This document shows, piece after piece, positions 18,183-63,522 of a DNA stretch of 64,000 bases. A program made the position numbers and the translations under genes. Within the stretch, counting starts at the first letter, position 1. Each line of letters opens with the position of its first letter. The notes under the pieces were generated by a model, which saw only the letters and a program-made list of their open reading frames with translations, had not been told where the DNA came from and ran no database searches. Origin of the DNA: Prorocentrum cordatum (taxonomy: Eukaryota; Sar; Dinophyceae; Prorocentrales; Prorocentraceae); the NCBI GenBank assembly GCA_963575745.1, contig CAUYUJ010017847.1, positions 62,001 through 126,000 of the forward strand, in the 5' to 3' direction.

Positions 18183-19547
18183 CTGGGCGCCGGCGATAAA
18201 CCGTCAACCTTTGTTTTTTGCGTCTTTGCTGGGACCGTCTTGGCCACTAAGGCCAGGTCCAACAAAGTATCAGGCGAAACAGAGCCTCTTATTTATCACG
18301 CAAGCAGTCAGCTCTTACACCACGCAGCGAAGCTGTTGGAATAAAGAGAATCACATGCCCGCAATGACACAATCAAACGCAAAGCACACAAAAGACAAAC
18401 AACCTTTGTTACCGCCGGGGGGGTCGTAGAGCTTCCTGACAACATATAATGTCGAAAAAAATAACACATAAAAAAATGTTTCAGCCCAAGCAATTTCAGA
18501 CCTCTCGGATGCAACAGGCGAACGCCCCCGATGCTTCTGGATTGTCCTGTACGAGCTCTGTAGCTCTCCTACAGCCCGAGTTACGTGCGCAAATCGACAG
18601 CACCTCTCAAGATGACTCGAACAATACAAATAGTTTGGCAAACCTAGCTGGAGTATCAGACCGAGGTCAGACCTCTGCATGCGACAGGCGACGCGTTTGA
18701 TGTCTCTGAATCGATTCCTGTGATTACCAGCCCTGCAGCCCCCCTACAGCCCGAGTTAAGTGCAGGAAACCGACAGCACCTCTCAGGATGACTCGAACAA
18801 TACGAATAGTTTCGCGGACCTAGTTCGGGCAGCAGACAGAGTTCGGAGCTCTGGATTCGAAAGGCGGACGCGCCTGATGTCTCCGAATCGATTCCAGTGA
18901 TTACCAGCCATGCAGCCCCCCTACAGCCCGAGTTAAGTGCAGAGAACCGACAGCATCTCTCAAGATGACTCGAAAAATACAAATAGTTTCGCGATTCCAG
19001 ATCGGGCAGCAGACCGAGTTCAGAGCTCTAGATTCACAGACAACAGCCACTGATGATTCTGAATCAGATTCTGTACGTGTCAGCTTTGTAGCTGTCCTGT
19101 AGCTCGAGTTAGGTACAGAAAACCGAGAGCGTCTGTCAAGATGACTCGAATAATACGAATAGGTTTGCGGACCTAGCTCGCCTAGCAGACCGAGTTCAGA
19201 CCTCTGGATTCAACAGGCGAACGTGCCTGATCATTCTGAATCGATTAGCTGTGCTTACCAGCTCTGTAGCTGTCCTGAAGCTCGAGTTATCTTGAGAAAA
19301 CCGACAGCGTGTGTCAAGATGACTCGAAACGGCCGATCCCGCCACAGTGCTTTTCGATAGTAATATTCACCCGATCGAACTGAGATCAAGATGGCGAGCG
19401 GGAATAAGATCGAATATCATGGGAAAAAATACTAAGAGCTCAAACGAATTGTTGAATTTTGAGAACAAAAGTTTCAACCGACCCAAAGTCAGCAAAAGTT
19501 CCGTCGAGATTTTTCTTGCCAACTAGCTCTCCAGTGCGCCGGAATTA
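18183..19547 (-). mobile_element. A1 module carrying a LINE fragment in its hairpin
   Basis: The module head is split: CTGGGCGCCGGCGATAAACC lies left of the insertion and TTACCGCCGGGG right of it. The remainder is a normal A1 unit ending at GCGCCGGAATTA. Confidence 0.8.
18216..18399 (-). mobile_element. LINE 3'-end fragment (tail type GACGCAAAA)
   Basis: A 184-bp insert, read in sense on the minus strand, ending GCAAAGACGCAAAA. It is flanked by 11-bp direct repeats CAACCTTTGTT at 18205-18215 and 18400-18410, a clear target duplication. A stem lies about 15 nt before the tail (GGACC/GGTCC and TGGCC/GGCCA arms, 18232-18260). It contains AACAGCTTCGCTG, a motif shared with the 62.3-63.5 kb element, so both probably belong to one family. 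No coding sequence. Confidence 0.8.
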
Positions 19548-20548
19548 CTGGGCGCCGGCGGTAAACCGTCACCTTGGTTACCGCCGGGAGACTCGTAGAG
19601 CTTCCTAGCTCGACTTAAGTTAAAGAAAACCGGCAGCACCTACCAACATTCCGACTCATAGTGAATTTGTTTTACCTCTGAATGCGACAGGCGGACGCGT
19701 CTGATGTCTGCGAATCGACTCCTGTCATTACCAGCCCTGCAGCCCCACTACAGCCCGAGTTAAGTGCAGAAAACCGACAGCACCTCTGAGGATGACTCGA
19801 ACAATACGAATAGTTTCGCGGACCTAATTCGGCAGCAGACCTAGTTCGGAGCTCTGGATTCGACAGGCCGACGCGCCTGATGTCTCCGAATCGATTCCTG
19901 TGACCACCAGCACTGTAGCCCCCCTCAGCGCGAAAGGAGTGAAGAAAACCGAGAGCACTTCTCAAGATGACTCGACCAATACGAATAGTTTCGCGTTTCT
20001 AGATCGGGCAGCAGACCGAGTTCAGAGCTCTGGATTCGACAGACAAACGCAACTGATGATTCTGAATCGGTTTCTGTAATTATCAGCTCTGTAGCTGTCC
20101 TACAGCTCGAGTTAAATACAAAAAACCGAGAGTTTCTGTCAAGATGACTCGAATAATACGAATAGGTTTGCGGACCTAGCTCGGCTAACAGACCGAGTTC
20201 AGACCTCTGGATTCAACAGGCGAACGCGCCTAATCATTCTACATCGATTAGCTGTGCTTACCAGCTCTGTAGCTGTCCTAAAGCTCGAGTTATGTTCAGA
20301 AAACCGTCAGCGCGTATCAAGATGACTCAAAACGGCCGATCCCGCCACAGTGCTTTTCGATAGTAATATTCACCCGATCGAGCTGAGATCAAGATGGCGA
20401 GCGGGAATAAGATCGAATATCACGGGAAAAAATACTAGAGCTCAACGAATTGTTGAATTTCGAGAACAAAATTTTCAACCGACCAAAAGTCACCAAAAGT
20501 TCCGTCGAGATTTTTCTTGCCAACTAGCTCTCCAGCGCGCCGGAATTA
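19548..20548 (-). mobile_element. A2 module segment
   Basis: First member of subfamily A2: after the inverted repeat it reads TAGCTCGACTTAAGTT and ACCAACATTCCGACTCATAG in place of the GACAATATATAATGTCG of A1. It then joins the common monomers. Confidence 0.8.
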
Positions 20549-21687
20549 CTGGGCGCCGGCGGTAAACCGTCAACCTTTGTTACCGCCGGGGGACTCGTAG
20601 AGCTTCCTGACAACATATAATGTCGAAACAAATTATACATAAAGAATAATTTTTCAGCCCAAGCAATTTCAGACCTCTCGGATGCAACAGCCGAACGCCC
20701 CCGATCCTTCTGGATTATCTTCTGTACGAGCTCTGTAGCTCTTCTACAGCGAGTTACGTGCGTAAATCGACACCTCTCAATATGACTCGAACAATACGAA
20801 TAATTTGGCAAACCTAGCTCGAGTATCAGACCGAGTTCAGACCTCTGCATGCGACAGGCGGACGCGTCTGATGTCTCTGAATCGATTCCTGTGAGTACCA
20901 GCCCTGCAGCCCCCCCTACAGCCCGAGTTCAGGAAACCGACAGCACCTCTCAGGATGACTCGAACAATACGAATAGTTTCGCGGACCTAGTTCGGGCAGC
21001 AGACAGAGTTCGGAGCTCTGGATTCGAAAGACGGACGCGCCTGATGTCTCCGAATCGATTCCAGTGATTACCAGCCATGCAGCCACCCTACAGACCGAGT
21101 TCAGTGCAGAGAACCGACAGCATCTCTCAAGATGACGAACAATACGAATAGTTTCGCGATTATAGATCGGGCAGCACACCGAGTTCAGTGCTCTGGATGC
21201 AACAGACAACGGCCACTGATGATTCTGAATCAGATTCTGTTCGTATCAGCTCTCTAGCTGTCCTGTAGCTCGAGTTAAGTACAGAAAACAGAGAGCGTTT
21301 GTCAAGATGACTCGAAAAATACGAATAGGTTTGCGGACCTAGCTCGGCTAGCAGACCGAGCTCAGACCTCTGGGTTCAACAGGCGAACGCGCCTGATCAT
21401 TCTGAATCGATTAGCTGTGCTTACCAGCTCTGTAGCTGCCCTGAAGCTCGAGTTATGTTCAGAAAACCGTCACCACGTATCAAGATGACTCGAAACGGCC
21501 GATCCCGCCCGTGTGCTTTTTGGCAGTAAAAGGTACCCGATCGAGCTGAGATCAAGATGGCGAGCGGGAATAAGATCGAATATCACGGGAAAAAATACTA
21601 GAGCTCTAACGAATGGTTGAATTTCGAGAACAAAATTTTCAACCGACCAAAAGTCACCAAAAGGTCCGTCGAGATTTGTCTTGCCAA
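20549..21687 (-). mobile_element. A1 module segment
   Basis: Hairpin intact (loop ACCGTCAACCTTTG). Small deletions occur in the monomers (for example at 20775). It is cut at TCTTGCCAA. Confidence 0.75.
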
Positions 21688-22100
21688 CTGGCGCCGGCGG
21701 TGAGCCGTCAACCTGGTCACCGCCGGGAACCTCGTAGAGCTCCTCTCACTGGTAAGAGTGCAGAGAATCGACACAGAGTGAAAAAAAACAGATTTTTCGA
21801 AAATCTTCAAATTCGATTTTTTCGATGTTCATATTCGCTCAGTTCCTGGAAGTCAACTCATGCAAAAATGCATCGAGAGAGCTGAGCTGCTGTCAGAGAG
21901 GAGTTTAATGCGACGCGCAAAAATCTGCTGTCTCGAAATAAATGGTCAAATATCTTTCAAATTTTCGCAAAACCACCCAAAAGTTGCCACATTGTCCGCC
22001 TCGGCCGGCTGGGCCAACTAGCTCCACCCCGCGCCGGAATTCCTCTAGCTCATCGATGCCGAAGAGCTCTACGAGGTACTAGCTCTCCAGCGCCCCGGAA
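21688..22100 (-). mobile_element. B2 module plus resumed outer tails
   Basis: The B2 head is CTGGCGCCGGCGGTGA with second arm TCACCGCCGGG: the stem has changed on both sides, TAA/TTA to TGA/TCA, a compensatory pair. The body has GCACTCTTAC-type and TCGATGTTCATATTCGCTC segments. Ends of B and A units follow (GCTCTACGAGGTACTAGCTC). Confidence 0.75.
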
Positions 22101-23000
22101 CTGGGCGCCGGCGGTAAACCGTCAACCTTTCTTACCGCCGGGGGACTCGTAGAGCTTCCTGACAATATATAATGTGGAAAAATGCAGAGAACGAATAGTT
22201 TTTCAGCCCAAGCGTTTTCAGATCTCTCGATGCAACAGCCGAACGCCCCCGATGCTTCTGCATTGTCTTCTTTACGATCTCTGTAGCTCTGCTACAGCTC
22301 GAGTAACGTGCGTAAACCGACAGCACCTCTCAAGATGACTCTAACAAACGAATAGTTTGGCAACCCTGACTGCGACAGACCACCAGCACTGTAGCCCCCC
22401 TCAGCCCAAGTTACGTGCAGAAAACCGAGAGCACTTCTCAAGATGACTCGAACAACACGAATAAGTCTGCGATTCTAGATCGGGTAGCAGACCGAGCTCA
22501 GAGCTCTAGATTCAACAGACAAATGGAACTGATGATTCTGAATCGGTTTCTGTAAGCATCAGCTCTGTAGCTGTCCTATAGCTCGAGTTAAGTACAGAAA
22601 ACCGATAGCGTCTGTCAAGATGACTCGAATAATACGAATAGCTTTGCGGACCTAGCTCGGCTAGAAGACCAAGTTCAGACCTCTAGGTTCGACAGGCGAA
22701 CGCGCCTGATCATTCTGAATCGATTAGCTGTGCTTACCAGCTCTGTAGTGGTCCTAAAAGCTCGAGTTATGGTGAGATAAGCGTCATCGCGTGTCAAGAT
22801 GACTTGAAACGGCTGATCCCGCCTGCCTGCTTTTTGGCAATAAAAGGTACCCGATCGAGCTGAGATCAAGATGGCGAGCGCGAATAAGATCGAATATCAT
22901 GGGAAAAAATACTAGAGCTCAAACGAATTGTTGAATTTCGAGAACCAAATTTTCAACCGACCAAAAGTCACCAAAGGTCCGTCGAGATTTGTTTTGCCAA
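22101..23000 (-). mobile_element. A1 module segment
   Basis: Related to the 9633 copy. It has an internal deletion near 22370 (GCAACCCTGACTGCGACAGA) that removes about two monomers. Confidence 0.7.
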
Positions 23001-24425
23001 CTGGGCGCCGGCGGTAAACCGTCAACCTTCCAAACCGCCGGGAGATTCGTAGAGCTTCTTGAGCATCTATAATGTCGAAAAGAATTGCAGAGAACAAACG
23101 ATTTCAGACCTCTCGATGCAACAGCCAAACACCTGTGCGCACGAGCTCCGTAGCTCTCCTACAGCCCGAGTTACGTGCGAAAATCGACAGCACCTCTCAA
23201 GATCACTCGAACAATACAAATAGTTTCGCGAATCTAGCTCGAGTATCTTTTAGTGCCAAAAAGCGTCCAGGCGGGATCCGCCGTTTCGAGTCATCTTGAC
23301 ACGCGATGATGGTTTTCTGAATATAGCTCGAGCTTTAGGGCTTACAGAGCTGGTAAATACAGCCAATCCATGTAGAATGATCAGGCGCGTTCGCCTGTTC
23401 AGACCGAGTTCAGACATCTGAATGCAACAGGCGGGCGCGCCTGATGTCTCCGGATCGATCCCTTTGATTACCAGCCCTGCAGCCCCCTTACATCCCGAGT
23501 TAAGTGCAGAAAATCGACAGCACCTCTGAAGATGACTCGAACAATACGAATAGTTTCGCGGACCTAGCTCGGGCAGCAGGCCGAGTTCAGGGCTCTGAAT
23601 CCGACAGGTGGACGCGACTGATGTCTCCAAATCGATTCCAGTGATTACCAACCCTGCAGCCCCCTTACAGCTCGAGTTAAGTACAGAAAACGGACAGCAC
23701 CTCTTAAGATGACTCGACGAATAGGAATACTTTTGTGAACCTAGCTCGGGCAGCACAACGAGTTCCGAGCTCTTGATTCGGCAGGCGGACGCGCCTGATG
23801 TCTCCGAATCGATTCCTGTGAGTACGAGCCCTGTGGCGCCCCTACAGCCCGAGTTCAGTGCAGAAAACTGTCAGCACGTCTCAAGATGACTCTAACAATA
23901 CGAATAGTTTTGCGGACCTAGCTCGGGCAGCAGACCGAGTTCAGACCTCTAGATGGAACAGACGAACGCGCCTGATGATTCGCAATCGATTTCTGTGAGA
24001 ATGGGCTCTGTAGCTGCCCTACAGCTCGAGTTAAGTACAAAATACCGACAACGCGTACCAAGATGACTCGAAACGGCCGATCCCGCCGCGATGCTTTTTC
24101 GCAGAAATATCTACCCGATCGAGCTGAGATTAAGATGGCGAGCGGGAATAAGATCGAATATGGTCAGAAAAAAGAATTGTTGAATTTCGAAAAAAATTCA
24201 AACGACCTAAAGTCAGCAAAAGGTCTGTCGAGATTTGTCTTGCCAACTAGCTCTCCGGCGCGCCGGAATTACTCAGAAGCTTCCAGCAACTAGCTAAGGG
24301 AAGCTCTACGATTTACTAGCTCTCCAGCGCCCCAGAATTACTCTTAAGCTTCCAGCAATAACTTGCTAAGGGAAGCTCTACGAGTTATTTTCAACCGACC
24401 AAAAGTCACCAAAAGTTCTGTCGAG
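23001..24425 (-). mobile_element. A1 module with internal inversion and resumed tails
   Basis: Contains a reversed A-tail piece at about 23248-23399. Its far end shows two successive A ends (GCTCTACGATTTACT near 24304 and GCTCTACGAGTTATT near 24374) and then a resumed host fragment up to GTCGAGA, where a C module is inserted. Confidence 0.7.
23248..23399 (+). repeat. Inverted piece of an A-module tail
   Basis: TGCCAAAAAGCGTCCAGGCG, GTTTCGAGTCATCTTGACAC and AGAATGATCAGGCGCGTTCG are the reverse complement of the tail found in normal orientation at, for example, 7850-7960. About 150 bp is flipped inside an otherwise minus-sense module. Confidence 0.8.
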
Positions 24426-24712
24426 ACTTGGTAGCGTCCAAAGCCCGGAGAGCGAAGAGAACGTCGGGAAGGGAAAATATTTCCTCGAGAGCGCTGGGGG
24501 GCTCCCCTGCAGCGCTGTCGAAGCGCTGCCGGGAAGCCTTCCACGCGTGCCTGCACGCGTGAAGGCACACGTGGACAGCGCCCCTGAACCCGCTGCCGGC
24601 TCGCCGGAGTTTCTGCGAGGCCTGTGGACCGCCGTGGAGAAGCTCCTGGCGGGCACCACCACCGTCCGGTTTCTAATCTTAAACCCTTTAGCTCTCAGCG
24701 AGCTCTCCGGGA
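24426..24712 (-). mobile_element. C module
   Basis: Bounded by CTTGGTAGCGTCCAAA on the left and GCGAGCTCTCCGGGAA on the right, with inverted CCCGGAGAGC/GCTCTCCGGG. The left copy lies about 18 nt inside the terminus, so the repeats are asymmetric as in A and B. The host A sequence GTCGAGA is interrupted and continues with TTTTTCTTGCC. Confidence 0.8.
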
Positions 24713-25013
24713 ATTTTTCTTGCCAACTAGCTCTCCAGCGCGTCCGAACTGGCGCCGGCGGTGAACCGTCAACATGGTCACCGCTGGAAACCTCGTAGAG
24801 CTCATTTCACGCGTAAGAGTGCTCGGAGTCGAAAGAGAGAGCTTCTGGAAGCATTTCTCGAAAAAAAAATGATTTTTTCGTGTCGACATGAAGATGGTTC
24901 CGCCAAGTGTTTTGATAGTAAAAGTGCGCCTACAGAGCTCATACTAAGACAGAGAGGCCCTCATAGTCGTTTACAGGTGCGAAAAATCTGCTTCCTCAAA
25001 ATGAATTGTCAAA
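24713..25013 (-). mobile_element. Resumed A tail, then B2 module (head at 24749)
   Basis: 24713-24748 is host A sequence continuing after the C insertion. The B2 head CTGGCGCCGGCGGTGA starts at 24749 and the body includes TTTTTTCGTGTCGACATGAA. It is cut at GAATTGTCAAA. Confidence 0.75.
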
Positions 25014-25536
25014 CTGGAACCGGCGGTAAACCGTCAACCTGGCTACCGCCGGGAACCTCGTTGAGCTCTTCTCTTGCACGGCGATCGTCGGAACACGGAG
25101 AGAAAGCTTCTGGAGCGAGAAAGAAAAAACTCAAAAAAACACGTTTTTCTGCTTTTACTCAACGTCGGTTCCCCCAAGTCTTTTGATAGTAATACTGCAC
25201 CTACAGACCTGAAAATTTTACTGGCAGACGCGGCAAAACCCACTACAGGTGCGAAAAATCTGGTTTCTTAAAACCAAATGTCAAATATCTTTCAAATCTT
25301 CGCAAAACTACCCAAAAGTTGTCACAGTCCGCCTCGGCCGGGTGGGCCAACTAGCTCCACCCCGCGCCGGAATTCCTCTAGCTCATCGATGCCGAAGAGC
25401 TCTACGAGGTATATTTTCCAAAAAATTGCAAAACCACCCAAAAGTTACCACTTTGTCCTTTCTGGCCGGGTCGACCAAGCTCCACCCCGCGCCGGAATTC
25501 CTCTAGCTCATCGCTGCCGAAGAGCTCTACGAGGCA
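25014..25536 (-). mobile_element. B1 module with nested B ends
   Basis: A full B1 body reaches GCTCTACGAGGTA near 25411. A 5'-shortened B piece follows (TTTTCCAAAAAATTGC) and reaches its own GCTCTACGAGGCA, giving two B ends in succession. Confidence 0.75.
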
Positions 25537-25654
25537 CTGGAACCGGCGGTAAACCGTGAACCTGGTTACCGCCGGGAACCTCGTAGAGCTCTTTTCTTGC
25601 ACGGCGATCGTCGGAACACGGAGAGAAAGCTTCTGGAGCGAGAAAGGAAAAACT

Positions 25655-25693
<39 letters not shown>

Positions 25694-25699
25694 AAGGAG

Positions 25700-25777
<78 letters not shown>

Positions 25778-25987: not shown

Positions 25988-26234
25988 CTGGGCGCCGGCG
26001 GTAAACCGTCAACCTTCGTTACCGCCGGGGACTCGTAGAGCTTCCTGACAACATATAATGTCGAAAAATAATACACTGAAAAAATAGTTTTCCAGCCCAA
26101 GCAATTTCAGACCTCTCCGATGTAACAGCCGAACGCCCCCGATGCTTCTGGATTGTCTTCTGTACGAGCTCTGTAGCTCTCCTACAGCCCGAGTTACGTG
26201 CGTAAATCGACAGCACCTCTCAAGATGACTCGAA

Positions 26235-26280
<46 letters not shown>

Positions 26281-31075: not shown

Positions 31076-31854
31076 CTGGGAACCGGCGGTAAACCGTCAA
31101 CCTGGTTTTTGTTTGTTTGTTTGGACTCGCGTTCCCAGCTGGGTGCAGCTGGGCGAGGACCGGTCCCGCAGAAGCACACGGGCAGCGCTGAGCAGCGCTT
31201 CGGCTGCCGACAATTCACATTCTGTGACTGTAGCTCCTTCGAGGAGCCACGCGGCCTCGGCCACACCCCTCCAAACGAGGGGCACGGCACTAGAAACAGC
31301 AAACTCATGCCCAGCAGGGAAGGGGCCCACGGTTCTCGCGGAAGCGATGCCTATCTCACTGGGATTGCACTGAGTATTGATTAAGCCGATCTGAAGCCAG
31401 AAACCACATCCTGATCCTTGCTGGTCAACCCCTCCATCAAAGCCTCCCCTGATAGCGAATGGTAAGAGATAAGTTTCGAATGGATATAGATAACAATGAG
31501 TTCTGTAGAATGTGCGGCCACATCTGGCCTCATGCGTCAATTCATCCGCTCGTGTATTGTCCTCCCTGAATTCATGTCAACCTGGTTACCGCCGAGAACC
31601 TCGTAGAGCTCTTTTCAGGCACCGCGATCGTCGGAGCACATGAAGAAAGCTTCTGGAACGCGACAGAAAAAAACTCGAGAAATTACGTTTTTTTATGTAT
31701 CCAACGTCGGTTCCTGCAAGTCTTTTGATAGTAATATTGCAGCTACGGACCTGAAAATTTTACTGGCAGACGCGGCATAACCCACTACACGTGAGAAAAA
31801 TACCGGCTCTCAAAAAGAATTGTCAAATATCTTTCGAATATTAACTGGCGCCGG
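31076..31854 (-). mobile_element. B1 module carrying a LINE fragment in its hairpin
   Basis: Head CTGGGAACCGGCGGTAAACC is followed by the insert, and after it TTACCGCCGAGAACCTCG and a normal B1 body to ATCTTTCGAATATTAA. Confidence 0.85.
31108..31575 (-). pseudogene. 5'-truncated LINE copy: ORF2 C-terminus
   Basis: The minus-strand frame reads DELTHEARCGRTF-like sequence, then FAIRGGFDGGVDQQGSGCGF and VTECELSAAEALL, almost identical to the C-terminal part of the LINE at 55-61 kb, with only a few amino acid differences. The insert ends in three CAAA units plus A. It is flanked by the 12-bp direct repeat GTCAACCTGGTT at 31096-31107 and 31576-31587, a true target duplication from target-primed reverse transcription. 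In this copy the first stop after the tail is a TGA supplied by the target sequence (GGTTGAC). Recent insertion, given the near identity; not functional alone. Confidence 0.9.
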
Positions 31855-52016: not shown

Positions 52017-52091
52017 GAAGAGAATTCAGAAGCGAAGCTCTACGAGTCCCTCGGCGGTAAGGAAGATTGACGATTTACCGCCGGCGCCCAG
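52017..52091 (+). mobile_element. Module terminus, first in the opposite orientation
   Basis: GCGAAGCTCTACGAGTCCC, hairpin CTCGGCGGTAA/TTTACCGCCGG and GCGCCCAG are now in sense on the plus strand. Orientation of the array switches between 52016 and this point. Confidence 0.8.
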
Positions 52092-52440
52092 TAACTCGTA
52101 GAGCTTCCCTGTGCAACTAGTTGCTGGGAGTTCAAGAGTAATTCCCGGAGCCCTTTTTAAAACCGCTGGCCGGTTTAATAGACTAAAGATTAAATACAAG
52201 CGGACGGTGTGGTCCCCCAGGAGCTTTTCCACGCGCTCCACTTTCCCCGGCGACAACCCGCCCTGAGACGTCCAGGGGAGCTTCCGCGCAACTCCACCGA
52301 AGGGCCATAACTCTGCAGGCACGCGTGGAAATTTCTGGCAGCGCTTCGGCAGCGCTTCAAGGGAGCTTCCCAGAGCTTTCCAGGAAAGATTTCCCGTCCC
52401 GAAAAGGTCTCTTCGCTCTCCGGGTTTTGGACGCTACCAA
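52092..52440 (+). mobile_element. A start, then divergent C module
   Basis: TAACTCGTAGAGCTTCCC is the sense start of an A unit, interrupted after GAGTAA by a C unit (TTCCCGGAGCCC to TTTTGGACGCTACCAA). This C is long and diverged in its first half (TTTAATAGACTAAAGATTAA). It shows where C inserts relative to A. Confidence 0.7.
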
Positions 52441-52762
52441 ATAACTCGTAGAGCTTCCCTTAGCAAGTTATTGCTGGAAGCTCAAGAGTATTACCTCGTA
52501 GAGCTCTTCGTTATCGATGAGCTAGAAGAATTCCGGCGCGGGGTGGAGCTAGTTGGCCGACCCGGCCTTAAGAGACAAAGTTCCCGGAGAGCTCTCTGAG
52601 AGCTAAAGGTTTTAGATTAGAAGCTTGTCGCATTCGCAGACATCAGACGCGTCCGCTTGTCGCATTCAGAGGTCAAAAAAATTTACTATGAGTCAGACTG
52701 TTGGTAGGTGCTGTCGGTTTTCTCAACTTAAGTCGAGCTTGGAAGCTCTACGAGTTCCCCGG
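52441..52762 (+). mobile_element. Stack of A, B and C starts, then A terminus
   Basis: In order: A start (TAACTCGTAGAGCTTCCC), B start (ACCTCGTAGAGCTCTTCG at 52494), C start (CCCGGAGAGCTCTCTGAG at 52583) and the last 135 nt of an A2 unit to GAAGCTCTACGAGTTCCCCGG. Each start is cut by the next insertion, which gives the order of events. Confidence 0.75.
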
Positions 52763-53096
52763 TCGTACATGGACCTGTGCCATATGCCTGCACCATCGGA
52801 GCTTATGGATTTCGACTGGCATCCATACGGCTGGACTTATGATGAGATGTGTGCCTTTTACTTTTATCCTGCGCCACATGAGTATTGTGTAGTAGGCTAC
52901 TCGTAATCTTCTTTCTGCTCTGCTTTCCCCTTAACTCCGATCGTTGAAACGTTGCCTGACCTTCAAAGGAGGTTCACTGTGTAGGTGTGCCGCCTGAACG
53001 CTTTGCGCGTTGCCCGTTCGCTGCGTTCGCTGCTTCGGGACTCGTTCTCCTCCAGCTGCTTTACAGCTGGTGCACAGGAGCGCAAACAAACAAAAA
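52763..53096 (+). mobile_element. Short LINE-type insert in a module hairpin
   Basis: A 334-bp insert between CCCCGG and ACCAAGGTTGACGG of an A2 hairpin, same point and orientation as the other LINE inserts. It ends with a CCAGCTG/CAGCTGG stem (53052-53070), then CGCAAACAAACAAAAA, the same 3' architecture as the 6-kb LINE. No target duplication is visible, and a few target bases are missing. Probably a second LINE family or a short non-autonomous derivative. Confidence 0.75.
52769..52906 (+). CDS. 45-codon open frame in the short LINE insert
   Basis: ATG lies six bases inside the insert, followed by 45 codons and TAA. The peptide is unusual in being full of aromatic and acidic residues (MDLCHMPAPSELMDFDWHPY, then GWTYDEMCAFYFYPAPHEYC), quite unlike the translations of the repeats. 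It could be the C-terminal end of a longer LINE protein left after 5' truncation, with the ATG internal, or a small protein of its own. I recognise no domain. Downstream about 190 nt of untranslated sequence leads to the hairpin and A-rich tail. Confidence 0.35.
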   Translation: MDLCHMPAPSELMDFDWHPYGWTYDEMCAFYFYPAPHEYCVVGYS

Positions 53097-53589
53097 ACCA
53101 AGGTTGACGGTTTACCGCCGGCGCCCAGTTGGCCGACCCGGCCAGAAAGGAGAAAGTGGTAACTTTTGGTAGGTTTTGCGAAAAATTGAAGAATATTCGA
53201 CAATTCATTTTGAGAAAGCAGATTTTTCGCACCTGTAGTGGGTTATGCGTCCGCCAGTAAAATTTTCAGGGCCATAGGTGCAGTATTACTATCAAAACAC
53301 TTGGAGGAACCGACGTTGGATAAAAATAGAAAAACGTGTTTTTTCGAGTTTGTCGTTTCTCGCTCCAGAAGCTTTCTCCAAAAGTTACGGGAACGAAGGA
53401 TACGAAGTTCCAAACAAGAAAAAGGAAGTTCCGGGACCCGACGGGGAATTCTGCGGAGAGAAAAAATGAGAAGAAGCCGAAATCCGAAGAAACGAATAAT
53501 CGAAAAAAAAAAAAACAGTCTAGTGCCAAGAAGTGGCATAGGAGGCTCCAGGCGTTGCAACAGGAGATGTGTAGAGATTTCGCGCCCAG
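53097..53589 (+). mobile_element. Rest of A2 hairpin, then B module with replaced terminus
   Basis: 53097-53128 completes the hairpin split by the LINE. A B1 body follows in plus sense (GGCCAGAAAGGAGAAAGTGG, TTTTTCGAGTTTGTCG). From about 53385 it changes into unfamiliar sequence (ACGGGAACGAAGGATACG, GGGACCCGACGGGGAATTC) and ends GCGCCCAG without any hairpin. Confidence 0.6.
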
Positions 53590-53658
53590 TTCCGGAGCTG
53601 GAGAGCTAGTTGCAAGAAAAATCCGACGGAACTTTTGCTACTTTTGGTCGTTTGATTT

Positions 53659-53702
<44 letters not shown>

Positions 53703-54670
53703 CAAAATTTGACAATTCGTTAAAGCTCTAGTATTTTTTCCCGTGATATTCGATCTTATTTCCGCTCGCCATCTTGATCTCAACTCGATCGGGTAACTTT
53801 GGAAGGCCAAAAAGCAGACAGGCGGGAACGGCCGTTTCGAGTCATCTTGATACGCGCTGTCGGTTTTCTCAAGATAACTCGAGCTTCAGGACAAATACAG
53901 AGCTGGTCAGCACAGCTAATGCATTCAGAATGATCAGGCGCGTTCGCCTGTTGAATCCAGAGGTCTGAACTCGGTCTGCTAGCCGAGCTAGGGTCGCAAA
54001 CCTATTCGTATTATTCGAGTCATTGTAGCAGACGCTCTCGGTTTTTCGTACTTAACTCGATCTGTAGGGCAGCCACAGAGCTGATAATCACATAAATCGA
54101 TTGAGAATTATCAGGCGCGTTCGTCTGTTGAATCAAGAGCTCTGAACTCGGCCTGCTCCCCGAGCTAGGTTCGCGAACCTATTGGTATTGTTCGAGTCAT
54201 CTTGAGAAGTGCTCTCGGTTTTCTGTACTTAAATCGTGCTGGAGCTACATGCTGCTGGTCACATAATCGATTTCAACATAGTTCCGATCCGTTCGCGAAC
54301 CGAGCGCTCGACTCGTCTGCTGCCCAACGGAACCCGAAACAGTTTATCATTCAGTCATCCTATATACTCTCGGTTTTCTGCACTTAACTCAGGCTGTATG
54401 GGGGGCTGCAGAGCTGGTAATCACAGGAATCGATCCGCAGACATCAGACGCGTCCGCCTGTCGCATTCAGAGGTCTGAATTCGGTTTCATACTCGAGCTC
54501 GATTCGAAAACTGTTCGTTTGTTTTGTTAGAGTCATCTTGAAAGGTCTATAATCGCTTGGGCTGAAAAACTAGTCGTTCTCTGGAATCCTTTTCCACATT
54601 ATATATTGTCAGGAAGCTCTACGAGTCCCCCGGCGGTAAGAAAGGTTGACGGTTTACCGCCGGCGCCCAG
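53590..54670 (+). mobile_element. A1 module, plus sense, with T43 tract
   Basis: Runs from GGAGAGCTAGTTGCAAGAAA through the tail and monomers to the complete end GGAAGCTCTACGAGTCCCCC, hairpin, GCGCCCAG at 54670. Carries a pure T43 at 53660-53702. Confidence 0.8.
53660..53702 (+). repeat. T43 homopolymer
   Basis: Pure T run in the A tail, replacing the short run in TTGAAAATTTTG. Confidence 0.95.
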
Positions 54671-54973
54671 TTGGCCGACCCGGGCAGAAAGGACAAAGTG
54701 GTAATTTTTGGGTGGTTTTGGAAACAATTGAAGGATATTTGACAATTCATTTTGAGAAAGCAGATTTTTCGCACCTGTAGTGGGTTATGGCGAGTCTGCC
54801 AGTAAAATTTTCATGTCGTAGCTTCAGTTTTACTATCAAAACACTTGGGGGAACCAGCGTTGGATAAAAACAAAAAAAATGATTTTTCGAGTTTCTCAGG
54901 TCTTGCTCTAGACGCTTCCTTCATGCTTACCGAGGAGCGCCGTGTGAGAAAAGAGCTCTACGAGGGCCCCGGC
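54671..54973 (+). mobile_element. B1 module, left part (host of the 6-kb LINE)
   Basis: B1 body in plus sense, reaching GAGCTCTACGAGGGCCCCGGC. The hairpin is then broken by the LINE. The missing part (AACCTGGTTGACGG and the second arm) lies at 60997-61025. Confidence 0.85.
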
Positions 54974-55107
54974 TCAAGACATCTCGGCTCTAGGGCTCCT
55001 GGACCCCACAGGAGCTCAGGGGGTGTCGGCGCCGCGGGGAAGCGGCGCGGCGGCCATCGCTGCCATCGACGAGTACGGCATCTTTCAGGCAAGCCAGGCC
55101 GCCTGCT

Positions 55108-56727
55108 TTGTGTACTGTATTTGTTGTTGTTTTTCTTGTCGTGTGTGCAACAACGGACGGGTACGACTTTTCAATACTTGCTAGACGTTTCCAGCTGGAG
55201 GATATTTCCCCGACTGTACCTTATTTGCAGGACTCACAGGATTACGCTGTTGAGGGACCAGATTCTGCTGTTGAGAGGGCGTCTCGGAAGAGGCAACTTC
55301 AGGATACCGAGCAAATTGTGCGTGACCTTCCACTGGACGGGAGATTGAATACTGCCGACTCCACACCAGATAGTGATTGTCATTGTGCTGTCCCATCTTC
55401 ATTTGTGAATATGAATACAGGGCTCATGAATATGATGCAGACTCCTTCCAACGCAGCTGTGGCGGGAAATACGATCAACGGAGGGCGTGTGGGAGGGGCT
55501 CCAGCAGGTCAGGTCAGTCCTGGAGGTCAAGGATCTGGAGGCGCTCCTGTTGTTCCTAGAGGCCCAGCTCCACAAGGTGCTCTAGGGGGACCCCCAGGTA
55601 TGCCCACGGAGGCACAACAAGCGGCGGCCCAAGCGGCTGTTGTCCCTGAAGGTGCTGGAGAGCGTCAGGGTATGCAGGGTGTTAGCGACGACGCCCAACG
55701 AAATGTTAAACATCGTGTCGACGGTCCTCAGGAGGCACTCTTGGGGGAACTCGAGGAGAAGCGAAAGAAACTCAGTGTGGTCTCGGACGAGGCCCCATCC
55801 TGGTTCAAGGCCTTCGCGGAGCTCAACGTACTCGAGAGCAAAGTTAGGCAACAAGAAAACGTCGAAATTAGGGCCGATATTCAGAGCATCTCGAACCGTC
55901 AGGAGGCCTCCGACATCAGGATGAGCAACTTGGAACGACAAATGCAGGATCTCAAGAAGAACCCCAGTGTGATATCAGGTGCTGCCTCGACCACGGCACC
56001 TTCCTATGGAGGAGGCCCACCAGGACTCTCGGGACCATCCAGCTTCAATCCCAGCTATGTGGAGCTCACAGGCTGGACTGACTGGAGCGGGACAGCGGTT
56101 ACACGTTCGGCCAGTATGATGAGAGACACGGACGCTGCACAATTTATCACTAATTTGAAGACGGCCATCGCTGCAGAGGATGAAGCTAGGATCGATTACG
56201 AGGGCACATTACGTATGAATGGAAGTAGAATGATGTTGAGTACGATCAAAATCAAATTCATTGTAGGAACCGACTCTTCGACACTATACAACGTGAAGCG
56301 TGCTTTTGATGATGCTTTAACTCCGAATCCCCAGAGGAATGCGGCTCAGGTTTCGAGGTCACCTCCAGACTATGACAGCATGTTCCAGGGCATGTTACAG
56401 CGACCCAGTCGGGTCCGAGTACGTATAGAAGCTCCACCATGGAAACGTGATCATATCGGAGCTGTGGGGCGTTTCTACGGGACATACCGCGAGTGCACCA
56501 ACGGTGAGGCTATGGAGATCAGGGGGGAGACAGGATCGGGACCCAACGGACGGAGCACAATGTGGACCAAACCGCAGGATCCTCAGCACCGACCTGTGGA
56601 ACTGGCATCCTTTCGTATCAATACGGGGTGGACAGTGGACCGCGAGATCTGGGAGGGTGTACTTATGCGCAGCGGTGTGACGACTACATACGACACATTT
56701 GTGGCGAGTCTTGCCGGCAGGGCGTGA
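55108..56727 (+). CDS. LINE ORF1, coiled-coil RNA-binding-type protein
   Basis: The open frame extends from at least 55108, but the first ATG is at 55411 (438 codons from there). The earlier part has no ATG, so either a non-AUG start is used or the 5' end is truncated. Order of regions: Gly/Pro/Ala-rich linker (about 55440-55680); a likely coiled coil (about 55720-55970, with LLGELEEKRKKL, NVLESKVRQQENVEIRADI and MSNLERQMQDLKK); a globular C-terminal part starting PSYVELTGWTDWSG (56056 onward) and ending FVASLAGRA. Coiled coil plus C-terminal nucleic-acid-binding domain is the usual plan of LINE ORF1 proteins, which coat the element RNA. The PSYVE-type motif recalls ORF1 proteins of dinoflagellate LINEs as I remember them. 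Ends in TGA, directly followed in the same frame by ORF2. Confidence 0.75.
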   Translation: MCTVFVVVFLVVCATTDGYDFSILARRFQLEDISPTVPYLQDSQDYAVEGPDSAVERASRKRQLQDTEQIVRDLPLDGRLNTADSTPDSDCHCAVPSSFVNMNTGLMNMMQTPSNAAVAGNTINGGRVGGAPAGQVSPGGQGSGGAPVVPRGPAPQGALGGPPGMPTEAQQAAAQAAVVPEGAGERQGMQGVSDDAQRNVKHRVDGPQEALLGELEEKRKKLSVVSDEAPSWFKAFAELNVLESKVRQQENVEIRADIQSISNRQEASDIRMSNLERQMQDLKKNPSVISGAASTTAPSYGGGPPGLSGPSSFNPSYVELTGWTDWSGTAVTRSASMMRDTDAAQFITNLKTAIAAEDEARIDYEGTLRMNGSRMMLSTIKIKFIVGTDSSTLYNVKRAFDDALTPNPQRNAAQVSRSPPDYDSMFQGMLQRPSRVRVRIEAPPWKRDHIGAVGRFYGTYRECTNGEAMEIRGETGSGPNGRSTMWTKPQDPQHRPVELASFRINTGWTVDREIWEGVLMRSGVTTTYDTFVASLAGRA

Positions 56728-57370
56728 CGGTGCAGAGGTGCCAGTCGGGCTGGTGGCCCCACAGCCCAGCATAGGCTAGGCACCCAGAATCTTATGAAAC
56801 AAGGGGCTACAGCAGATCGGGGATTTGCTTGCATGAGGGCACTTCTTTCTCACGGCTGTGAAGTGTTCTGTTTACAGGAGTGTGAACACTTACCGTCCAA
56901 TTCAATTCAGCTGCTTGGCTGGCACCTAGTTTACTCAAGTGACAGGAAGGCTTCCATAGCTTTGAGGGGGAAGTCTTGTCACAACATAGTTCGTTCTTGG
57001 AGTAATCATGCTCGTCTTGCTATTGTGTGCTTGCGTCATCCGTGTATCTTTCTTGTCTCTGCGTACTTTCCGAACAGATCGGAGAATCGTTCATTGGAGG
57101 TGGCTTTTGAGATGCTGAAAACAATCGAAACAACTTATCGGAGGTGGAAGGAGGAGTGCAGATACACATGTGAGCTTGTGATTGCAGGGGATTTTAATGT
57201 TGAGCTTGCGCCCGACATCACCTGTTCAGGAGGCACGGTGACTGGAGGTGCTGTGCAGATTCTCGACGGGAGGGGATATGGGAATGATACGGAGGATAGA
57301 CGGTGGGAGGAGGACATGTGGCGATCCCAGCTGCAGGAGTGGCTATGTCGGATGCGCTTGCTGGCAGTCA
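56728..57370 (+). CDS. LINE ORF2, N-terminal endonuclease part (frame 1)
   Basis: In the same frame as ORF1 and with no stop after its TGA. The first ATG (56794) lies two codons after the GTQN motif (56782-56793), whose Asn is the first catalytic residue of APE-type endonucleases. This suggests that translation enters from ORF1. Further motifs in order: FCLQECE (catalytic Glu near 56878), VSAYFPN, and VIAGDFN with GDFN at 57187-57198. The domain nicks target DNA to prime reverse transcription. The frame is lost around 57350-57375: the remaining endonuclease motifs (LDYLMVP, FSDHACVYAEF) are found one frame back in the next entry. Confidence 0.8.
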
Positions 57371-59140
57371 ATTCTCCGGCTCGCCGTACTCTCGGCAGCC
57401 GACCTTCGTGCATCGTGCGAACAATGCTCGACGCAAGTCTGGGGCGAAGACTATTGCGCCAAAAGTGCTTGACTATCTCATGGTCCCACAATCCTGGGAG
57501 GGTGACTTGGTTGAATGCCGAACGGATTGGATCCCAGAGACCCCGACTACCAACTTCTCGGATCACGCCTGTGTCTACGCCGAGTTCCAGATGCAGAACC
57601 CTCAGGTCACGAAATATCAAGGCCCCCCTAGCCACCACACAAGCCACAAAAAGTTCCAATCGTATCGGGAGGAGGCCCAATTCCAGGTCCTGGCGGACGT
57701 ACAGATCCCGACGGTGCCCCCACAACGTATTGCTGGAACGATCGCTGAACATGCGTTACCACTCCTCGCGGTGAGGGCCCCCAGGTACTCCAGAGGGCTC
57801 CCACCGAGTAGGACTCCTCAACATGCCGAGCTGGAGGTACAACTCAGAGAGGCACGTGCTAGGAAGGACAGAGCGTTGGCTCGAGACCTTCGACGTCGCA
57901 TCAGACCGCTGGCGCGGGAATATCGCCGACGGAAGGTGGAGTGGGAGGCACTACCATCTAGGAAGGGGAGGAGGACACGTGTGACGGAGTTGAGGGTGAC
58001 GGACACTGGGGGAGGGGATGTGGGTCCTACGACTATGATGACGGAGGACAGGGAACTATGGGCGGAGGAGGTGGAGCGATATGCTGTGCAGAGTATGACT
58101 TGTGATGACTCCAGAGCCCGCAATCGGGAGCTTGTGTCCACACTGCGTCGCCATGCATCTCAATCAACAGCCTCTTCGGACAACACACTCACGATCACAT
58201 ACTCTACTATTCTGCAGGCGCGGAGCAGACTCCGAACAGGACGGGCCTGTGGGCCCGATGGCATCTCGGTTGAACTTCTCAAGGCTCTTTCGTGGAGGTC
58301 AGTGCGTTCTATTGGTAAGGTTTTCTCTGATATATTCAACGGGCTTCGCCCGACGCCAAGGGAATGGCAGGAAGTATACCTAACACTTATGCCGAAAACG
58401 AGTAAACTGGAAACATTGCGACAAACAAGGAACCTGCTTGTTGGAAATACCTTGGCCAAGTGGTATCTCACGTGCGTGACGATTTTACTGGAAAGATGTG
58501 TGGAACCCTTCATGAGTGATATGGCGGTCTACGGTTTTACCAGCGGACGGCGTTGCTGGGAGATTTCATCGGCCATGAAATGTATTGCACAGCATGCTTC
58601 CACATGGGGGCGAGATCAAACGGCGTGGCTCCTCAGCTGTGACATCGAGCGGGCGTTCGATGCTGTGACGCTGCCGACAGTCTCGAGAGCGATGACGGCC
58701 CTGGGGATCAGTGCACGGTTACAGTATGCGTTATTGGAGCCTCTCTCATCTACCTCATGCACGGTGCTGTTTGAAGGAGTGACAATCCCAAATGTGCAAT
58801 GGGACAGGTCACTCCGCACTGGGGGTACCGAATCACCAATCGCGTTTACTATTGTCACTATTGCTATGTGGCGGGATGTGATTGCTCGCCTGGACCAGCG
58901 CGGTGTCGGAGTCGAGATGCCATGCCATGACGATCACTGCCGGTACGCACGGTGGAATCATGCTCTCTGGGCCGACAATATTTTTCTGGCCGCCAAGTCA
59001 GCATCGGAGGCGCAGGTAGCAGCCACTGCCTTCACTACTGCTCTCAGGGAGTGGGGGATGGAGTGGAAGGAGGAGAGTTTAGAAATGATGGTGTGTGGTA
59101 CTCAGTACACTGATACGGTCACGGTTCAGATTGGCTCGCG
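57345..59140 (+). CDS. LINE ORF2, endonuclease end and reverse transcriptase (frame 0)
   Basis: Starts with the end of the endonuclease: LDYLMVP and SDH (57558-57566). Reverse transcriptase blocks follow: GRACGPDGISVELLKAL, then WQEVYLTLMPKTSKLE, block A CDIERAFD (catalytic Asp near 58641), block B GGTESPIAF where most LINEs have QG.P.SP, and block C ALWADNIFLAA with WADN at 58968-58979. The second Asp of [FY]xDD is Asn. I recall WADN in other dinoflagellate LINE reverse transcriptases, so it may be normal for the group and not damage. Basic region RRIRPLAREYRRRKVEW precedes block 0. The frame ends in a TGA at 59169, but homology appears to leave it between about 59111 and 59150. The upstream limit is set by the frameshift, not by a start codon. 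Confidence 0.85.
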
Positions 59141-60996
59141 GATGTACCTTTCAAGCGTGTTGAGAGTTTGAATGTGCTGGGATATCAGATTCCCAGAAGT
59201 TTCACTGCTATCCACACGGATGTGCAGGAGCGCGTCCAGCAGGCCCGACGGGCGTTCTTTGCGCAGGTGCAGTATTTTACGTGCAGGGCGTTGCCTCTGG
59301 TGAAGAAGTTTCGTCGATATCAATCGACTGTGCAGAGCCGCCTTTTATATGCAGCAGAGGCCATCACGATTGACAGTGAGTGTGTGAGGGTTATCCATGC
59401 GTTCGAGGGTATGTGTCTTCTGAGAATGTCAGGGAGGAGGAAGCCAGGAGATGTGGGGTGGGAGGTATGGCGGCCAGCTGCACTGACACGAGTCAGGACA
59501 ATCTTCTGCGATGGGGGTTTCCCATCGGCTGTGCAGATGCTGTGCTGGAAGAGCTGGGGCATGATGCGCTCCACGAGGCAATATTTACTATCTTGGGAGG
59601 AGGACAGGACGGCAAGGACGGAGGTTGAGGTGGAGGGATCAACGACTCAACGTGCTAAACGTGTTCGCTTTACGGAGGGACGGGGGGAGGATATACCTGC
59701 TGCGACTGTGATGGAGGCGGAGGGGGGGAGTACGGACATGGAGAGGAGGCTGGAGGATCTCTGCTCGCAGGTCGCCTGTTCCATTGCCCGCTCACAGCCG
59801 ATGCCCTCTGGAGAGGGAGCTACCCACACTCTCAGAAACGAGCCGCTTGCCGTCTCAAAGGGGAGGAGGGCCTTTCGAGACTCCCGACGTGCGCTTATGA
59901 TGTACAATGTTGGCTGGGTCACGGCTCGCGACACAATAACAGAGGTTCTACGACAACACGGCAGCAGGGCCTTATCTAGTTCGGGCAAACGGCTTCGTGG
60001 AGGCCCTGTGTCTGTGGGCGGACGGTCTTGGCAGTTCCCATACATTCAGTTCTTTGGGGAAAAGTGGTGGGAGTCTGTACGGGGTGATTGGGTTCAATTC
60101 TTGGAGGTATGGAAGCAACTCCTTATACAATACAACAAATCTAAGGTCTATGATTACTTTGTGGTGTCTTGGAAGGGCTCTCCTAATGGACCTCGAGGCT
60201 CCCCTGAGGCTCGTGAGAAGGCCGATACTGAGATGGTCGATACCGCGACCAACCCTCTGCACCCCAAGTATGACCCCAAAGAGTCCGCCAAGCTTGCAAT
60301 ACGATATGCGATGATCCAGGAACGCGCGACTGTGTGGGACATATCGTCAGAGGGTTTTGCTGCTGAGTTCAAGGGTGACTCACTACTTATCTGCTCCTGG
60401 CTCCAGGGTAAATGGAGATGTGAGAATCGTGGCTACTGCAAGAGGACAGCTGCCATGATTGATTGTACCTTTGAGCTCGCCGCGTGTTTCAATCTGAGGC
60501 CTGCTGCCTTGGGACGTGAGATATGGAGACACGAATTCAGGGAGGACAATACACGAGCGGATGAATTGACGCATGAGGCCAGATATGGCCGCACATTCTA
60601 CAGAACTCATCGTTATCTATATCCATTCGAAACTTATCTCGTACCGTTCGCTATCAGGGGAGGCTTTGATGGCGGGGTTGACCAGCAAGGATCAGGATGT
60701 GGTTTCTGGCTTCAGATCGGCTTAATCAATACTCAGTGCAATCCCAGTGAGATAGGAATCGCTTCCGCGAGAACCGTGGGCCCCTTCCCTGCTGGGCATG
60801 AGTTTGCTGTTTCTAGTGCCGTGCCCCTCGTTTGGAGGGATGTGGCCGAGGCCGCGTGGCTCCTCGAAGGAGCTACAGTCACAGAATGTGAATTGTCGGC
60901 AGCCGAAGCGCTGCTTAGCGCTGCCCGTGTGCTTCTGCGGGACCGGTCCTCGCCCAGCTGCACCCAGCTGGGAACGCGAGTCCAAACAAACAAAAA
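59141..60996 (+). CDS. LINE ORF2, thumb and RNase H-like C-terminus (frame 2)
   Basis: Coding appears to resume with VPFKRVESLNVLGYQIP, the typical post-reverse-transcriptase segment of LINEs. After a Ser/Glu/Arg-rich linker come RNase H-like motifs: FKGDSLLICSWLQGKW (near 60370-60420) and REDNTRADELTHEA (near 60535-60580). Then come FAIRGGFDGGVDQQGSGCGF (near 60650-60705) and VTECELSAAEALL (near 60885-60925). By RNase H logic the first pair resembles strand 4 and the last helix, and the second pair strand 1 and helix A, so the order looks permuted. No stop codon occurs before the 3' tail; the frame reads through the hairpin and tail into the host repeat and stops at 61235. RNase H would remove the RNA strand during integration. 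Confidence 0.7.
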
Positions 60997-61025
60997 CCTG
61001 GTTGACGGTTTACCGCCGGTTCCCA
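60997..61025 (+). mobile_element. B1 module terminus, right half of split hairpin
   Basis: CCTGGTTGACGG, TTTACCGCCGG and TTCCC complete the B1 module interrupted at 54973. The terminus CAG is changed to CAT by the join to the next B piece. Confidence 0.8.
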
Positions 61026-61298
61026 TATTTGACAATTCATTTGGAGAAAGCAGATTTTTCGCACCTGTAATGGGTTATGACGCGTGCGCCTGTAAAATTT
61101 TCAGGCCCGTAGGTGCAGTATTACTACCAAAACACTTGAAGCAACCGACGTTAGATAAAAATCGAAAGACGTATTTTTTCGAGTTTTTCGGGCCTCGCCA
61201 GAAGCTTCCTTCATGTGTTCTGAGAAGCGCGGTGTGAGAAAAGAGCTCTACAAGGGTCCCGGCGGTAACCTGGTTGACGGTTTACCGCCGGTTCCTAG
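61026..61298 (+). mobile_element. B1 module, 5'-shortened
   Basis: Starts inside a B1 body (ATATTTGACAATTCATTTGG) and ends with GAGCTCTACAAGGGTCCCGG, an intact hairpin and GTTCCTAG. Confidence 0.8.
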
Positions 61299-61672
61299 TT
61301 ATCGACGAGCTAGAGGAATTCCGGCGCGGGGCGGAGCTAGTTGGTCGACCCGACCAGAAAAGAAGATTGACTTTGGGTCGGTTTTGCAAAGATTTGAAAG
61401 ATATTTGACAATTCATTTTCAGAAACCAGATTTTTCGCACTTGTAAACGACTATGAGAGCCTCTCTCTCTTAATATGAGCTCTGTAGGCACACTTTCACT
61501 ATCAAAACACTTGGCGGAACCAACTTCATAGACATGGAAAAAATCAGTTTTGACTTTTTCGAGAAATGCTTCCAGAAACTCTCTCTTTCGATTCTGAGCA
61601 CTCGTACGCGTGCAAGGAGCTCTACGAGGTGCCCGGCGGTGACCAGGTTGACGGTTCACCGCCTGCGCTAGT
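61299..61672 (+). mobile_element. B1/B2 module, right edge of the main block
   Basis: From TTATCGACGAGCTAGAGG (B start, missing its first bases) to GAGCTCTACGAGGTGCCCGG, a GGTGA/TCACC hairpin and CTGCGCTAG. Non-array sequence follows. Confidence 0.75.
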
Positions 61673-61895
61673 AATAGACAGTGCCAACACATTCACACAA
61701 GGGGTTAAGTAGAGCATACTGTAAGTACAGGGGCACACTCGCATGATCCAACCCACGCCTGACATTGGCCGTCGTGGAGTGATCGAACGCGTGGAGGACA
61801 TCAGCGTTCGCCAAGTGTGCCGTTTCCCTTTTTCCCCAGTGTGCAGCATGTTGACCTATATGTTTGATGCTAGCCGTGATTTCGTGTGTACGACG
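61673..61895. other. Non-array host segment
   Basis: About 223 nt (TAATAGACAGTGCCAACA to TGTGTACGACGATGT) without matches elsewhere in the window. It lies between two module insertions and is probably the original host DNA, continuing at 63523. No reliable coding frame. Confidence 0.5.
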
Positions 61896-62270
61896 ATGTA
61901 CCTTGTAGAGCTCTTCGTTATCGATGAGCTAGAGGAATTCCGGCGCGGGGTGGAGCTAGTTGGTCGACCCGACCAGAAAGGACAAAGTGGTGACTTTGGG
62001 TCGGTTTTGCTCAGATTTGAAAGATATTTGACAATTCATTTTGAGAAAGCAGATTTTTCGTACCTGTAAAAAGGTTCTGAGAGCCTCTGCGTCTTAATAT
62101 GAGCTCTCTGGGCGCTTTTATTACCGAAACACTTGGAGGAACGAACTTCATCTCAACATGAAAATTAACTAATGTTCAATTTTCGAGGAATGCCTCCAGA
62201 AGCTCTCTCTTTCGACTCTGAGCTCTCTTACGCGTGAAAGGAGCTCTACGAGGTTCCCGGCGGTGACCAG
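61896..62270 (+). mobile_element. B module inserted in host DNA, left part
   Basis: Begins ACCTTGTAGAGCTCTTCG, a near-perfect B start, and reaches GAGCTCTACGAGGTTCCCGG and CGGTGACCAG, where a LINE-type insert splits the hairpin. Its last 25 nt lie at 63498-63522. Confidence 0.8.
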
Positions 62271-62687
62271 GAGCTCTACGAGGTTCCCGTCGGGGGCTTC
62301 CTCAAGCCTGTCTCCTCAGGCTGCCCCCTGGGCGGCCGTGTGCGCGCGGGCGGGCCGTGCAATAAATTCGGGTAATTCGTCGGCTGCGACGACCATCTCT
62401 CCTTGGGCCTACAGATGATAGGTGCTGGAGGCCAGCTCTGTTTGGCATCAGAAGTGGGACTGACTTCAACGCATAGGCCGCTGTCGTCGCTTTGTACTTG
62501 TTTGTGCTGCCTGCTTGCGCTTTCTCCATTATTGCTCTTGCACGCGTGTGTATTCTTTGACATTGAGGTACTTTGACAGTTCTGTGACATTGGAGTATCT
62601 TGAGATTGAGGTTCTCTGCATTGTATCGGCGTGCCTGTTTTCATTCTTTCTTTCTTTGAATCGTATCGATCAGAATTCAAGATACTT

Positions 62688-62815
62688 GAGTGCGTTATCA
62701 GACACTCAGTTATGCAGGTGATTCAAGATACTGAGTGCGTTATCAGACATTCAGTTATCCGAGAGTTACTTCTTGAGTGCGTTATCAGACATTCAGTTAT
62801 CACACATTTGACGTG
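62688..62815 (+). repeat. Three tandem 42-45-nt repeats
   Basis: GAGTGCGTTATCAGACAYTC starts at 62688, 62733 and 62775, each time followed by AGTTAT. They lie inside the 1.2-kb LINE-type insert. Confidence 0.85.
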
Positions 62816-63068
62816 AGCATACGACTCTTGTCTTACCGCGGGTTGTTCCGACATATTTCGGACTTTGTGTTTGCGTTGACTCTTGCCATGCTGTGTGTAT
62901 GTGTGTCGGACATGCGCGCATGTTGGTATAAGAGCTCCGCGTGATCTTCACTTTGTTCGGAATAAGAGTTTTGCATTTGCCCACTCCCGCTCAAAGAGTG
63001 GTGGGTGTCTTGCCTGACTCTGTGCACAGTCGACCTCAAATTCGTTGTGTTTCACGTGCATGGTCTTT

Positions 63069-63295
63069 CAGTGGTGCTGAGGCGATAATCGCTATATGTG
63101 GTTACTGCATGGTCTCGCATTACTTTGAAGTGTACTCGTCATTCTAGTTGTTAGTTTTGTGTTTGTCTCAGTGGTGTTCAGACGGTAATCGCTGTATAAA
63201 CCAGTGGTTACTGTATGGTCTCACTGCTTCTATTCTCAGTGGTGCTGAGACGGTAATTGCTGTATGTGGTTACTGCATGGTCTCGCATTGCTTTT
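63069..63295 (+). repeat. Three diverged tandem repeats in the 1.2-kb insert
   Basis: CAGTGGTGYTSAGRCGRTAA starts at 63069, 63169 and 63237, followed in each case by GGTTACTGYATGGTCTC. Spacing is uneven (100 and 68 nt). Confidence 0.75.
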
Positions 63296-63497
63296 ACTCC
63301 CTCTTTATATTTTAGTTGTATTCTCGTGTATTGGCAGTCTTGTGCATATCTGTACAGCTTCGCTGTTTGATGCACCTCTGCTTCAATCTTTGCAGCTTCG
63401 CTGTCTTCCTGTACAGCTTCGCTGTTTAGGTTCTTTGTGTTTAGGCCTGCTCCCATGGGAGCTCGAACCGGCCTTCGCAAAAGACGCAAAAGACCAG

Positions 63498-63522
63498 GTT
63501 TACGGTTCACCGCCGGCGCCAG
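63498..63522 (+). mobile_element. B module terminus, right end of the last module
   Basis: GTTTACGG, TTCACCGCCGG and CGCCAG complete the module begun at 61896. The host resumes with TTCCTGGAAAAC. The host joins show T on both sides (GATGT before the module, TTCC after it). Confidence 0.75.

Follow-up and report, generated by a model that had tools for sequence, protein, structure and literature searches.

The DNA analysed here (the window: 64,000 nucleotides of the dinoflagellate Prorocentrum cordatum, positions 62,001 to 126,000 of contig CAUYUJ010017847.1) raises the question of what inserts into the terminal hairpins of its repeat modules, and how the site is chosen. Five alien segments break module hairpins at GGCGGT|RAC, where the bar marks the bond, and all five lie in module sense (Table 1); the common hairpin base and the single orientation had been claimed in the first-pass annotation and are confirmed in the window. 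We consider it very probable that these segments are sequence-specific non-LTR retrotransposons and non-autonomous elements apparently using the same kind of machinery at a fixed hairpin bond, with leader-spliced RNAs among their templates.

The module array occupies ~3.3 to 63.5 kb of the window, and most modules terminate in a hairpin of the form CCCGGCGGTRA-loop-GGTTGACGGTTYACCGCCGG. By pattern, the window holds 63 right hairpin halves, 56 on the minus and 7 on the plus strand. Between 3300 and 50300 the modules stand head to tail in a single orientation over 47 kb (the 56 minus halves), and from 52066 to 63500 they are flipped to plus. The point inside the next module at which a hairpin end joins it varies from junction to junction. 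With regard to a Helitron or Helentron identity, for which a 3' hairpin and defined termini are the marks, our reading of the hairpins and junctions in the window finds the hairpin followed by an AGT end in most modules. Apparent inverted repeats (ACTCGTAGAGCTTCC ... GGAAGCTCTACGAGT) also mark the module termini, for example at 13561-14964, and the hairpin lies beyond one of the two. The modules might be described as 5'-truncated head-to-tail chains; the junction list of the window contains at least one clear nested module insertion (13561-14964), however, and a model in which whole elements insert does at least equally well. Left of the module field lie GC-rich repeats and a run of 57 CAA units (761-931); GC content is 61.1% in the first 60 kb of the contig against 50.4% in the window. 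A search for host genes at the left end of the window gave no protein family above its cut-off, no tRNA or Rfam family at gathering score was found in the window, and the hairpin and the reverse transcriptase had no match in viral and prokaryote collections.

Table 1. Inserts, flanking duplications, coding frames of Y and an uninterrupted hairpin, in window positions
Feature	Position	Strand	Description
Insert A	18216..18399	-	Member of a short family, truncated at its 5' end; no 150-codon frame; tail GACGCAAAA
Duplication at A	18205-18215 and 18400-18410		AACAAAGGTTG, 11 bp
Insert B	31108..31575	-	5'-truncated Y copy; tail (CAAA)4; 98% to Y over 467 bp
Duplication at B	31096-31107 and 31576-31587		AACCAGGTTGAC, 12 bp
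Insert Z	52763..53095	+	Short element; Y-like 3' end; (CAAA)n tail; 5' junction minus four target bases
Insert Y	54974..60994	+	LINE, 6,021 bp; tail (CAAA)3; 5' junction CCCGGC|TCAAGACATC, GGT missing
ORF1-like frame of Y	54994..56727	+	577 codons; no family match
ORF2 first frame of Y, endonuclease-like part	56728..57400	+	Broken near 57400; read-through matches PF03372 weakly
ORF2 second frame of Y, reverse transcriptase	57393..59133	+	Broken near 59130; RVT_1 E 1.9e-12
ORF2 third frame of Y, C-terminal part	59129..60994	+	No family match
Uninterrupted module hairpin	61254..61299	+	Example of an empty target; read in the window
Insert X	62271..63491	+	No 150-codon frame; tail GACGCAAAA; starts with 19-base module piece GAGCTCTACGAGGTTCCCG
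Duplication at X	62265-62270 and 63492-63497		GACCAG

Insert Y combines a LINE-type reverse transcriptase with a fixed 3' end, variable 5' truncation and target duplications, and on reading its ends are not mutual repeats of the kind that LTRs form. Its ORF2 is split by two frame breaks (Table 1). In a sequence search against solved structures, the reverse transcriptase matched LINE-1 ORF2p (8uw3, E 8.2e-9) and 8c8j (E 4.7e-9), whose title reads RNA-directed DNA polymerase and nothing more specific. The match of the endonuclease read-through to PF03372 (E 0.004, 17.4 bits) lies below the cut-off of 24.5, and this part had no solved relative below E 0.4. The sole protein relative found, P0001, aligns to 62% of the query with 61% identity and has a longest contig of 2,037 bases; the 952-residue read-through query had no protein relative.

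The other inserts are shorter. The 3' ends of Z and Y are 74% identical over 80 columns, and the truncation of A is apparent from 20 genomic copies that carry conserved sequence upstream of the start of the window copy. As to a SINE-like relationship, in which the 3' end is shared with a partner LINE, A and X have the tail GACGCAAAA in common, and no LINE with this tail was found among the copies examined here. A stem-loop is predicted before the tail in the last 80-90 bases of each of the five inserts, which would fit a reverse transcriptase that recognises the 3' end of the element.

If the hairpin is the target, copies elsewhere should run into it as well. The genome (4.13 Gb, 21,875 contigs) was searched with queries for Y, A and X that contained no hairpin sequence, and the best 40 of 500, 600 and 651 candidates, respectively, were scored; the copies examined are thus the top-scoring, recent ones. 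For Y (best 40 of 500), 33 of the 39 copies besides that of the window could be read, and 32 of these 33 run into the right half of the hairpin, the remaining one (L060) being a tandem in which the loop is followed by another, truncated Y. For A (best 40 of 600), 20 of 39 copies could be read and 19 of them are at the hairpin, 18 by pattern and L079, which has a small gap, by eye; L088 is off target. An earlier X set, collected with a query that included 31 bp of hairpin flank, gave 46 ends, with 33 at the hairpin (32 by pattern; L023 is incomplete), 10 with the loop and a second X (9 of them by pattern and L019 by eye) and 3 with the loop only. The flank-free X matches (best 40 of 651) comprise 33 that were already in this set and seven new ones, six at hairpins and one in tandem.

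Overall, 94 of 116 3' ends of these recent copies are followed by the right half of the hairpin by pattern, as is expected of a sequence-specific LINE, most of whose copies lie at one sequence, and a further 12 by the loop and a second X. Ten ends missed by the pattern were sorted by eye. These include the tandems L019 (loop and X) and L060 (loop and Y), the defective hairpins L079 and L023, four ends that retain the loop alone (L021, L024, L027, L029) a Y tail (L118) downstream of which just AACC is recognisable, so that its placement at a hairpin is ambiguous, and the off-target A copy L088. At least the loop is retained in 114 of the 116. A further 147 kb of the contig, read beyond the borders of the window, contain four hairpin halves, each of the two insert copies detected in them adjoining one. 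The site-specific, target-primed integration proposed in the first-pass annotation is thus supported genome-wide for Y, X and A, and the flanks are not the mostly unrelated DNA that would have spoken against it. Further tail types occur at the same hairpin site, one copy each, in L014 (+, 187), L037 (-, 521) and the left flank of X in L027, and suggest more element families than those studied.

A half hairpin common to 94 of 116 ends could also be part of the elements' own 3' end, with the true target beyond it. We regard this as extremely improbable. Within a single family, the loop letters of the right flank follow the module subtype, rare target variants flank their inserts on both sides (GATCAGGTTG in L011, GACAGGTTG in L010), which already refutes this explanation, and 89 of 131 hairpin halves adjoin the left arm without any insert. 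The junctions show the 3' tail attached at a single bond of the left arm, GGCGGT|RAC, and the varying right flank to be host DNA. For Y this bond has an uncertainty of up to two bases, as the As of the tail overlap the host AA; for X, where the host contributes a G (GCAAAA|GACC), it is fixed exactly.

Another explanation is that the tandems and the many identical sites arose by duplication of modules that were already filled, and that independent insertions were few. Three flanks are each common to two ends, one contig carries both L086 and L087, and a tandem X could come from unequal exchange. Nevertheless, 91 distinct flanks follow the 94 hairpin halves, which contradicts this explanation for the single inserts. 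In L015, adjacent X copies show matches to the query of 98.5% and 77%, a divergence more readily explained by separate insertions than by local duplication, although unequal exchange could also have produced it. We therefore consider a prevalence of copied, filled modules very improbable.

The tandems also bear on what is recognised. The site forms a palindrome, and a preference for unusual DNA is reported to be possible for LINE endonucleases (PMC12809410); the endonuclease might then recognise a folded hairpin (an extruded cruciform) instead of a sequence. However, in 13 ends with the loop and an X and one with the loop and a Y the second insert sits with the right arm displaced, and the five inserts of the window all occupy the left arm, with none at the mirror position in the right arm. 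We think recognition of a cruciform unlikely. Left arm and loop seem to suffice, because the right arm is no longer adjacent at the second inserts, and the tandem inserts suggest that the hairpin need not fold.

Recognition would thus be by the sequence of left arm and loop. In the mechanism that we propose for integration at this bond, the ORF2 endonuclease would nick the bottom strand at GGTT|ACCGCC, and the freed 3' end (bottom strand ending GGTT or GGTC) would prime reverse transcription from the tail. The top strand would be cut 10-12 bp downstream, giving a duplication, or ~3 bp upstream, giving a small loss. In the window, the duplications noted earlier stand at A, B and X and the losses at Y and Z (Table 1). 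Many copies have target duplications of ~10-12 bp. Among 22 X copies with both ends, some of which lie in tandems, the longest exact flank match is 10 bp in eight, 9 bp in four, 5-7 bp in six and none in four; these four, identified by script as full-length X without exact duplication, have one changed base (L006, L013), three (L003) or the loop only (L021). For Y, the 5' end was found at the expected distance in two of 20 regions (L118, L133), one region being all N. In both, as in the window, it follows CCCGGC, and the 3 bp missing are a shared junction of full-length Y; in L133 an additional 15-base repeat of the Y start precedes it. Many full-length X copies start CTGCTGTCCC directly after GGCGGTGACCAGGTTG. 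An HDV-like ribozyme at the X 5' end, for which stems looked suggestive by eye, was rejected: the second stem has no partner on visual inspection, no HDV family was among the matches, and full-length X starts ~40 bp further upstream.

Two X copies preserve a trace of their possible templates. The dinoflagellate spliced leader is given as DCCGUAGCCAUUUUGGCUCAAG in PMC6050394. Copy L021 reads GCGGTAGCCATTTTGGCTCAAG|GAGCTCTACGAGGTTCCCGGCGGTGACCAGGTTG and then X, matching the leader at 21 of 22 positions, and the final 16 leader bases are exact and stand directly before the module's GAGCTCTACGAG. Copy L009 reads GGTGACCAGGTTG, an 18-base filler, TCCGTCGCCATTTTGGCTTAAG and then X from an internal site; its leader (20 of 22) directly precedes this site, which in full-length X follows CTCAAG. 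The filler is similar to a segment within X (CCCCCTGGGCGGCC), as template switching would produce. The window X, after GACCAG, starts with GAGCTCTACGAGGTTCCCG, the same start (GAGCTC) as the module piece of L021, without the leader; no spliced leader was found in the window within 3 mismatches of its last 16 bases. On the same contig outside the window, two leader relics stand in tandem (L049 and 5181), as described for multiply retroposed genes.

The simplest reading of the two leader copies and the window X is that leader-spliced module RNAs may serve as templates. Some templates would be RNAs begun upstream in the module and trans-spliced to the leader at the module's AG|GAGCTCTACGAG (AG|GAGCTC), an acceptor that would lie ~30 nt before the target. 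That two copies alone carry the leader would also fit accidents, by chance match or unrelated insertion, which would say nothing of element expression. The exact 16 bases before GAGCTCTACGAG in L021, the position of the L009 leader at a site that follows CTCAAG in full-length X, and the GAGCTC start of the window X all argue against this, and we find accident rather doubtful as an explanation.

Several known systems resemble the one described here. Tx1L of Xenopus laevis, of the Tx1 group of L1-like LINEs, targets the Tx1D element and makes a long duplication. R2 uses a restriction-like endonuclease and is expressed from its host repeat, and TRAS and SART are APE-type LINEs that home to telomeric repeats. 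With Tx1L our elements share a LINE, here putatively of APE type, that targets another mobile element; they differ in the host and in the target, the terminal hairpin of an array-forming module that is common to several families. With R2 and other rDNA LINEs they share one fixed site, a precise 3' junction and, by inference here, expression from the host repeat, whereas the weak endonuclease match of Y is to the APE family. The likeness to TRAS and SART lies in LINEs, here putatively of APE type, homing to an abundant repeat, which here is a module hairpin and not a telomeric repeat.

The first-pass annotation had supposed a LINE group homing to the hairpin of an abundant non-autonomous element to be, as far as its author knew, undescribed. 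For LINEs homing to another mobile element in general this is not supported by PMC8869645, whose account of LINE targets includes 'other TEs' and whose cited works include the Tx1L endonuclease paper; LINEs that target TEs are already in print there, and the kind is therefore known. The Tx group is likewise called target-specific in a passage of PMC3747384. The picture of a LINE group is refined by the presence of several tail types and non-autonomous families. Among the entries listed by the open-access literature searches, no sequence-specific LINE in dinoflagellates and no Helitron-hairpin case was found. New here are the host, the hairpin target, the leader trace, the further tails seen once each, and one site common to Y, X and A genome-wide and to Z in the window.

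From the perspective of dinoflagellate genomes, leader relics in DNA mark retroposed RNAs, as in the spliced-leader-tagged retrogenes of these organisms (PMC6050394, in the sections on retrogenes). Those are host genes, whereas here mobile elements at a LINE target site carry the relics; the same sections state that the retroelement behind the retrogenes is unknown, and favour LTR elements. We tentatively entertain the possibility that a guild of LINEs and non-autonomous elements has settled at a single base just behind the module's trans-splicing acceptor, where read-through of the array would give leader-capped mRNA, and that the same machinery may make the leader-tagged retrogenes. Targeted insertion has both its models and its tools in sequence-specific LINEs, and where several families share one site, comparing them allows target choice to be tested. 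For the question of the retrogene machinery, mobile elements that carry leader relics where a LINE inserts supply a concrete candidate and a test.
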